From Syntrophomonadaceae bacterium (GTDB lineage Bacteria; Bacillota; Syntrophomonadia; Syntrophomonadales; DTU052): a stretch of 63,233 bases of DNA. Position numbers and translations under genes: made by a program. The notes beneath the pieces were generated by a model that did no database searches, had not been told where the DNA came from, and was given only the letters and a program-made list of their open reading frames with translations. Below, piece by piece: positions 28,479-63,233 of this stretch (positions are counted from its first letter, which is position 1; the number at the start of each line of letters is the position of its first letter). The stretch covers positions 1-63,233 of the forward strand of contig JAAYEQ010000006.1 of assembly GCA_012728655.1 (NCBI GenBank), in the 5' to 3' direction.

Positions 28479-29864
28479 ATGCGGCTTATTCATGATGTGC
28501 ATTTGGAACAACAACAAAAACTTCTTATGACTCCGGAACTCCGTCAGGCTATTGCCATCCTGCAGATGTCTTCGCTGGAACTCTCCGAGTATATTCAGCA
28601 GGAGATGGCAGAGAATCCTGTCCTGGAGCTGAGAGAGGAGGATGACAGTTCGGAGGGAGTTATGGTTGATGCGGTTGATGATGACCCCATGCACGAGGTG
28701 GAGTGGTGGGAGTATTTTGCCGACCGCAGTGACCTGGGTTATATTGGCGGGCAGGAACCTAAGAGTCATTATGAACAGTACAAGGCCGCAGCTCCTACCT
28801 TGCATGAGCATCTTTTATTCCAGATGCATATTGCCCTGAGTCGGGAGGAAGACCAGCGTATTGGCGCTTTCCTGATCGGATGCATTGACGATAACGGCTA
28901 TCTGCGCGTAAGCCTGGAAGAGGCGGCGGCGAGCCTTGGGGTAAGCACGAATCGGGTGGCCGAAGTGCTGAAGGTGATCCAGAGTTTCGAACCTTACGGG
29001 GTTGGCGCCCGGGATCTGACCGAATGCCTGCTGATCCAGCTGACCCAGACCAACAGGCTCAATCCCCAGGTGGAGCGGATTGTCCGCAACTATTTGGGGG
29101 ACCTGGCCCGCGGGCGCCTGGCCAAGATCGCAGCCACTCTGAAGATGAGTGTGGTTGAGGTACAGGATATTGCCGACCTGATAAAGACCCTGGATCCGAA
29201 ACCGGGCAGGCAATACGGCAGCGGCGGAGATGTACGTTACCTGATCCCCGACGTTACCGTGGAGAAGGTTAATGACGAGTATGTGATCACTGTTAATGAC
29301 GGCAATTCTCCCCGCCTGATGATCAGCCCCCTGTACCGGGAGATGATGCGCCAGCCGGGTGTTTTTAACAGCGAAACCCGCAAGTACATTGAAGAACGTA
29401 TTAATTCGGCGCACTGGTTGATAAAGAGCATTGAGCAGCGGAGGTTGACCCTCTACAATACGACCAAATGCCTGGTTGAGGCCCAGCGTGAATTCCTGGA
29501 AAAGGGCATAAAATATATGAAACCCTTAAACCTCAAACAGATTGCTGACCAGGTGGGGGTTCATGAATCCACCATCAGCCGGGTTACCAACAACAAGTAC
29601 ATTCAAACCCCCCAGGGGGTATTTGAGATGAAATACTTCTTCTGCAGCGGGTTGGAATCACGGCACGGCGAACGTTATTCATCGCGGAGCATCAAGCGCA
29701 TGTTGAAGGAACTGATAATTGAGGAGGACGCGCGCAATCCCTACAGCGACCAGCAGATAGCCGACAAGCTCTGCAGTCGAGGGATCAAGATTTCCCGGCG
29801 GACTGTAGCCAAGTACCGCATGGAACTGGGCATCGAATCAACCGCCAAACGCAAACGATACTGA
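28479..29864 (+). CDS. rpoN: RNA polymerase sigma-54 factor
   Basis: Recognises -24/-12 promoters and needs an enhancer-binding AAA+ activator to open them. 461 residues with region I (glutamine-rich LEQQQKLLMTPELRQAIAILQMSSLELSEYI), a short acidic region II, the core-binding domain, the HTH (LNLKQIADQVGVHESTISRVTNNK) and the RpoN box (ISRRTVAKYRMELGI). AGGTGATT precedes the ATG. 55 bases after whiA, so it may be read from that operon. A consensus sigma-54 promoter lies at the end of this window (63206-63221). Confidence 0.96.
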   Translation: MRLIHDVHLEQQQKLLMTPELRQAIAILQMSSLELSEYIQQEMAENPVLELREEDDSSEGVMVDAVDDDPMHEVEWWEYFADRSDLGYIGGQEPKSHYEQYKAAAPTLHEHLLFQMHIALSREEDQRIGAFLIGCIDDNGYLRVSLEEAAASLGVSTNRVAEVLKVIQSFEPYGVGARDLTECLLIQLTQTNRLNPQVERIVRNYLGDLARGRLAKIAATLKMSVVEVQDIADLIKTLDPKPGRQYGSGGDVRYLIPDVTVEKVNDEYVITVNDGNSPRLMISPLYREMMRQPGVFNSETRKYIEERINSAHWLIKSIEQRRLTLYNTTKCLVEAQREFLEKGIKYMKPLNLKQIADQVGVHESTISRVTNNKYIQTPQGVFEMKYFFCSGLESRHGERYSSRSIKRMLKELIIEEDARNPYSDQQIADKLCSRGIKISRRTVAKYRMELGIESTAKRKRY

Positions 29865-62250: not shown

Positions 62251-63000
62251 GTGGAGTTTTCTTCCCGCTACAGCCGTCAGGTAGTGATTGATGGATTTGG
62301 TGTGGCCGGTCAGAAGGCTTTAAAAAGAGGCCGGGTATTGATTGTCGGTCTGGGAGGGTTGGGAAATCCGGCAGCCCAGTACCTTGCAGCAGTCGGTGTC
62401 GGGACGATCGGCCTGATGGACAAGGATGTGGTCAGCCCGAGCAACTTGAACCGCCAGGTTTTGTTTCGTCCGGATGACACGGGTCTTGCCAAAGCCAAGC
62501 TGGTTCAGGAACGGCTTTCCCGCTTTAACCCGGAAATTAAGATTTTGACTTTCCAACAGGATTTGCAAAAGGAATCAACCCCTGAAATACTGAAACAGTT
62601 TGACATCGTTTTGGATTGCCTGGATAACCTGCCGGACCGGCTTAGCCTCAACCAAATCTGTCTAAGCCAGCGGAAGCCTATGGTCCACGGGGGAGTTATC
62701 ACTTTTTATGGTCAGCTTACTACCATTATTCCTTTTGCCGGTCCCTGCTTGCGCTGCTTTTCTCCAGGAAGCATGTTTGCCTGTGACTGTGCCCGGGCCG
62801 GAGTGTTGGGTCCGGTACCCGGGGTAATCGGCGTATTGCAGGCAATAGAAGCGATCAAGTATTTGGCGAATGTGGGGCGGGCGATGGTCGGACGGCTGCT
62901 GGTTTTTGACGGCTTGAACGGAACGTTTGACGAGGTTCCCGTCAAACGGGATCCCGGATGTCCGGCTTGCGGGCGTCAAAGACACGAAGATCTGGAATAA
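62251..63000 (+). CDS. ThiF/MoeB-family adenylyltransferase (E1-like)
   Basis: Adenylates the C-terminal glycine of a sulfur-carrier protein in thiamine, molybdopterin or cysteine synthesis. 249 residues: RYSRQVVIDGFGVAGQ, nucleotide-binding VLIVGLGGLGNPAAQYLAA, SNLNRQVLF, DCLDNLPDRLSLN, and two CxxC zinc pairs (CLRC and CPAC). No carrier protein (ThiS, MoaD) is nearby. GTG start after AAGGAGGGG. Which pathway it serves cannot be told from the sequence. Confidence 0.9.
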   Translation: MEFSSRYSRQVVIDGFGVAGQKALKRGRVLIVGLGGLGNPAAQYLAAVGVGTIGLMDKDVVSPSNLNRQVLFRPDDTGLAKAKLVQERLSRFNPEIKILTFQQDLQKESTPEILKQFDIVLDCLDNLPDRLSLNQICLSQRKPMVHGGVITFYGQLTTIIPFAGPCLRCFSPGSMFACDCARAGVLGPVPGVIGVLQAIEAIKYLANVGRAMVGRLLVFDGLNGTFDEVPVKRDPGCPACGRQRHEDLE

Positions 63001-63233
63001 CCGCCGAATCGATTAATTAAAATACTGCGAGGATTAAGCTGCAGGAAATTCAACCATCGGGTTAATTGGTAAACAAAGTGTGCCATGAACGTGTCAGGAT
63101 GTAACAGCGGTTGCTCTGGTAACGGGTTTGGGTTTTTTGCAGAAAAAGCCCAGAGGATGGCATTTTTCAAATCAATTCAAGCATAACGCAACCGAGGCTA
63201 TAACATGGCACGAATTTTGCAAATTAAATAAAT
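63001..63233. other. Terminal 233-base non-coding region
   Basis: Upstream region of an unseen plus-strand gene. Apart from the sigma-54 site nothing is certain; a paired enhancer motif for an activator could lie 80-150 bases before the promoter but none is clear. Confidence 0.6.
63206..63221 (+). promoter_or_regulatory. Consensus sigma-54 promoter (-24/-12)
   Basis: TGGCACG-AATT-TTGCA, matching YTGGCACG-N4-TTGCW exactly, with ten bases between the GG (63207-63208) and GC (63219-63220). The predicted start is at or just past the window edge, so the controlled gene lies outside. The window encodes sigma-54 itself (28479-29864). Confidence 0.8.

Follow-up and report, generated by a model that had tools for sequence, protein, structure and literature searches.

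A predicted sigma-54-dependent promoter of an acyl-CoA ligase gene at a contig end in a Syntrophothermus-like bacterium of the family Syntrophomonadaceae

The motif TGGCACG-N4-TTGCA at the right-hand end of the window (the whole stretch of DNA analysed, 63,233 nucleotides, which makes up all of contig C49 in a draft assembly of 2.3 Mb and 79 contigs) is very probably the sigma-54-dependent promoter of a monocistronic gene for an AMP-forming acyl-CoA ligase in a bacterium of the Syntrophomonadaceae that resembles Syntrophothermus. RpoN acting together with a GAFTGA-containing activator is the established mechanism of this promoter class (PMC6615313). In the mechanism that we infer here, RpoN-RNA polymerase would bind the motif, and a remote one-component enhancer-binding protein (EBP), responding to its presumed signal, would bind a dyad ∼100-115 bp upstream and reach the polymerase by looping; the AAA+ ATPase of the activator would then open the promoter complex, and transcription would run from near 63232 through a leader of ∼336 nt to a hairpin 3' of the ligase gene. 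The cell would thereby probably begin to activate a given carboxylic or fatty acid, the presumed ligase substrate, when the signal is present. The features are collected in Table 1.

Table 1. Features of the window and of the adjoining contig C27 (positions are those of the window unless a contig is given).
Feature	Position	Strand	Basis or remark
rpoN, sigma-54 factor	28479..29864	+	PF00309, PF04963 and PF04552 all matched
ThiF/MoeB-type gene	62251..63000	+	PF00899, E = 5.7e-75; separate unit upstream of the promoter, synteny anchor
Extra half-site TGTGCCA adjoining the dyad	63079..63085	+	Direct reading; similar TGTGYCA in three relatives
Putative activator-binding dyad GTGTCAGGATGTAACA (GTGYCA-N3-TGNNACA)	63091..63106	+	Conserved in G002, G003 and G004; ∼100-115 bp before the promoter element
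141 bp shared exactly with an end of contig C27 (C27:18934-19074, minus)	63093..63233	.	Sequence identity; supplies the downstream gene
Sigma-54 -24/-12 promoter element TGGCACG-N4-TTGCA	63206..63221	+	Exact match; kept before the orthologous ligase gene in three relatives
AMP-forming acyl-CoA ligase	C27:16902-18599	minus	PF00501 (AMP-binding), E = 1.8e-85; PF13193 (AMP-binding_C), E = 5.7e-19

In the element, TGGCACGAATTTTGCA, the GG (63207-63208) and the GC (63219-63220) are at the canonical 10-bp interval, just as a preliminary description of this DNA had it. The exact pattern TGGCACGN4TTGCA occurs once in the window and in none of 100 dinucleotide shuffles, and when one mismatch to TGGCAYRN4TTGCW is allowed the focal match still stands alone (1.8 expected by chance). 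Matches with two mismatches to the consensus are found at chance level; what carries weight is therefore that the focal match is exact. A weight matrix built from 19 sites gives these sites scores above 21, with other sequence in the scanned loci of this genome at 15.5 or below. On the joined contig the element is intergenic, ahead of a gene that runs in its own direction. Judged by the sequence tests that could be applied, the motif qualifies as a real sigma-54 promoter, and its transcript is expected to start near 63232. The preliminary description had also placed an rpoN gene about 33 kb upstream, and that gene is indeed there with all three sigma-54 domains.

The controlled gene was said to start outside the window, and it was found on contig C27, the end of which overlaps the end of the window in reverse orientation. 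The ligase ATG lies 362 nt from the start of the focal site on the joined contig and is preceded by a GGAGG ribosome site; just 3' of the stop codon, reading and folding give a GC-rich hairpin followed by T's, which is absent from the list of the terminator scan. As part of the whole explanation preferred here, it is highly probable that this gene is monocistronic and is served by the focal promoter. The best NCBIfam matches of the ligase are long-chain-fatty-acid ligases, below the cut-offs (455 bits versus a cut-off of 1116), and the subfamily PRK06187 scores 431 versus a cut-off of 476; from these matches the gene appears to encode a fatty-acid-type acyl-CoA ligase of unproved chain length, in line with what had been guessed beforehand. 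The description had also pointed to the hbd and crotonase genes just upstream; both lie on the minus strand and outside the unit of the promoter. The description had further allowed about 200 bases to the gene start. The actual start is ∼340 nt downstream, and the distances from site start to ATG in the relatives are 187, 224 and 366 nt, so the limit was too strict.

A -24/-12 element precedes the orthologous ligase gene in all four of the genomes whose DNA covers the region, which span two genera: besides the genome of the window (G000) these are G003 (TGGCATGAATTTTGCA), G002 (TGGCACGAATTTTGCA) and G004 (TGGCACGAATATTGCA), and the contig of G001 stops short of the site. G004 belongs to another genus and has a different neighbour upstream of its site. 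The ligase orthologues share 81-95% identity across the family, and in an order-wide search close homologues were restricted to this family. In a comparison of G000 with G003, the promoter (85% identity) and the surroundings of the dyad (75%) are better kept than the stretch that separates them (∼50%).

The pattern GTGYCA-N3-TGNNACA is present in all four upstream regions, about 90-125 bp before the promoter, and is a likely candidate for an activator site; an upstream activator sequence (UAS) 100-250 bp before the promoter is the rule in Clostridiales (PMC6615313). The motif was defined from these four instances themselves, the dyad of G004 being placed by direct reading. It has three matches in its own genome: the focal one, one in coding sequence on C64 and one at C42:42935, 110 bp before an exact sigma-54 site that fronts another acyl-CoA ligase gene. 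Both the focal dyad and this one fall 99-110 bp before their exact sigma-54 sites. The C42 dyad is the only independent support, because it was not among the instances that defined the motif. The match on C64 and another on C9 of G002 fall within coding sequence, have no sigma-54 site and look like chance; a further match, G004:C23:4309, is in intergenic DNA ahead of an HpaB-like gene, with no exact sigma-54 site. Other sigma-54 promoters of the genome show other palindromes, which is to be expected from a division of labour among 13 activators. One of them, the site at C46:183439 (L104, G000) before an acyl-CoA ligase gene, has a perfect palindrome resembling GTGTTACATGGGTGTAACAC upstream (GTGTTACA-N4-TGTAACAC) and a divergent activator gene, which makes a good candidate pair of activator and UAS.

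The length of the predicted leader, ∼336 nt from near 63232 to the ligase ATG, bears on two other explanations. The sigma-54 promoter may be a true one that mainly makes the leader itself, which would act as a riboswitch or regulatory RNA, the ligase being a secondary target. The leader would be long enough, and a block of ∼140 nt within it (L010:18640-18790) is common to G000, G001 and G003; this block is missing in G002 and G004, is present as a single copy in the genome and has no match in Rfam. A search of the leader against Rfam likewise returned no family, its folding z-score is just -1.47, its consensus fold lacks net covariation support and its identity (74%) is near that of fourfold sites (71%). 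Family searches, folding and covariation thus lend no support to a structured RNA in the leader, nor does its conservation, which stays near the level of fourfold sites, and we consider this explanation very improbable. A shade less probable again is that the element, in intergenic DNA, resembles the consensus by accident and that the ligase gene is read from a nearer sigma-70 promoter. The long leader would suit such a promoter, a weak sigma-70-like match does lie at C27:18889-18860 and the window has many loose matches to the consensus; however, shuffles and reversed patterns yield essentially no exact matches, the site and the dyad are kept across two genera whereas the sequence between them is not, and the weak match is the only sigma-70-like one on the leader strand, a frequency equal to the shuffled rate. 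An additional nearer promoter, beside the sigma-54 promoter, is possible given the long leader. That the contigs are wrongly joined and another gene is controlled is hardly credible: the assembly is a draft and the join is based on 141 bp, but this overlap is exact and end to end and looks like an assembly-graph overlap, G002 and G004 have a site of identical type before the orthologous ligase gene, and the join is settled by contig C127 of the congener G003, where the ThiF gene, the site and the ligase gene follow in unbroken order.

Returning to the preferred reading, a sigma-54 promoter that serves the ligase gene, its activator would have to be encoded elsewhere. The genome has 13 full-length EBPs, all with GAFTGA and with Fis-type HTH domains; PAS inputs are found in most and GAF inputs often. 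The preliminary description had proposed looking downstream for a controlled gene and a GAFTGA regulator; the gene was there, but no EBP gene is present on C49 or C27 and all 13 lie elsewhere. Most EBP genes are near an exact sigma-54 site, and the focal promoter is an orphan. The EBPs that have no neighbouring exact site, at C26:1264 and C42:11389 (GAF-PAS type) and at C47:100973 (PAS type), may be regarded as the first candidates for its activator; the dyad was not found near the EBP genes on C26, C42 and C47.

A sigma-54 activator on C47 (L013:10453-13149, 898 residues) carries 4Fe-4S, [FeFe]-hydrogenase H-cluster-like, FeS and PAS domains, with Cys148, Cys195, Cys306 and Cys310 as candidate cluster ligands. 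Its gene lies between sigma-54 sites at C47:23798 and C47:31964, one of which fronts a NuoE/NuoF/[FeFe]-hydrogenase cluster, and the pair of sites recurs with equal spacing on C96 of G001. The activator and these sites are a candidate hydrogen-sensing switch; domains of these kinds are listed among Clostridiales EBPs (PMC6615313). Directly after the two C47 sites are genes for proteins of ∼190-215 residues (L013:5330-5905 and L013:13464-14120). Both proteins have a stretch resembling CPR-x(3)-DVY-x(2)-G, and they matched no family in Pfam.

The search for further -24/-12 sites that had been suggested for this genome gave 18 matches to TGGCAYRN4TTGCA versus none to the reversed pattern (seven versus none for TGGCACGN4TTGCW). 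The five family genomes have 18, 15, 18, 20 and 21 matches, in total 92 versus none reversed; the focal site is included twice in the 18 of G000 because the contig ends overlap, and 91 places were counted overall. An acyl-CoA ligase match lies within 500 bp downstream at 28 of the 91 sites (56-425 nt), with a chance of ∼0.0025 (0.25%) per random site, although these counts are not independent as orthologous sites recur between genomes. Other sites in G000 precede genes for acyl-CoA dehydrogenases, 3-hydroxyacyl-CoA dehydrogenases and HpaB-family proteins, the last of which we take from family knowledge and PMC12316311 to be likely 4-hydroxybutyryl-CoA dehydratase-like; still others precede the NuoE/NuoF/[FeFe]-hydrogenase cluster and a DUF1097-like gene accompanied by reductase and crotonase genes. 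A few have no acyl-CoA link, among them the site before a gene for a PucR-type regulator on C39 and the one before an MrcB_N gene on C23; the latter site lies 134 nt before its gene (L011:4351-5640), outside the fatty-acid theme. The site of the DUF1097-like membrane protein (L010:3955-3970, minus strand) is a second exact one on the ligase contig, 342 nt before a gene that is followed by reductase, crotonase and MaoC-like genes; its 16-mer is identical in G001 (C53) and G003 (C127), on contigs that carry the orthologous ligase gene. The matches point to a family of ∼18 promoters per genome, mostly before genes that would serve fatty-acid oxidation.

To our knowledge, the choice among the many acyl-CoA ligases of syntrophic fatty-acid oxidisers is poorly understood. 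We suggest tentatively, and consider somewhat improbable as a whole, that sigma-54 could be the dedicated switch for the entire syntrophic fatty-acid programme (acyl-CoA ligases, β-oxidation enzymes and the NuoEF-linked [FeFe]-hydrogenase cluster), with separate one-component activators sensing individual acyl substrates and, via the hydrogenase-like activator, hydrogen. Because the promoters form a compact, near-identical set (∼18 per genome with almost no background), the regulon can be tested directly in cultured relatives, for which the focal promoter and its dyad offer a well defined first target.

No published sigma-54 map for this family was found in the literature searched; papers naming sigma-54 with Syntrophothermus or Syntrophomonas were sparse, and none joined RpoN, fatty-acid oxidation and syntrophy. 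Sigma-54 regulons with one-component EBPs have been described in Clostridiales (PMC6615313), where the last base of the element is T rather than the A of the focal site; the main text of that work contains neither 'syntroph' nor 'acyl-CoA', whereas the commonest target here is an acyl-CoA ligase. In Syntrophomonas wolfei, a related syntrophic fatty-acid oxidiser, the PAS/sigma-54/DNA-binding regulator Swol_0456 was seen only in butyrate-grown cells (PMC4324140) and is linked to syntrophic growth; the main text there does not contain 'promoter'. A multi-phylum survey predicts sigma-54 control of acyl-CoA dehydrogenases, 3-hydroxyacyl-CoA dehydrogenases and COG2368 (4-hydroxybutyryl-CoA dehydratase) in Clostridia (PMC12316311). 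These lipid-metabolism targets resemble the regulon described here; the main text of the survey does not contain 'syntroph', and neither a dyad nor a site-by-site map for this family was noticed in it. The promoter type and sigma-54 control of clostridial acyl-CoA metabolism are known, and the new detail is the map of the regulon.
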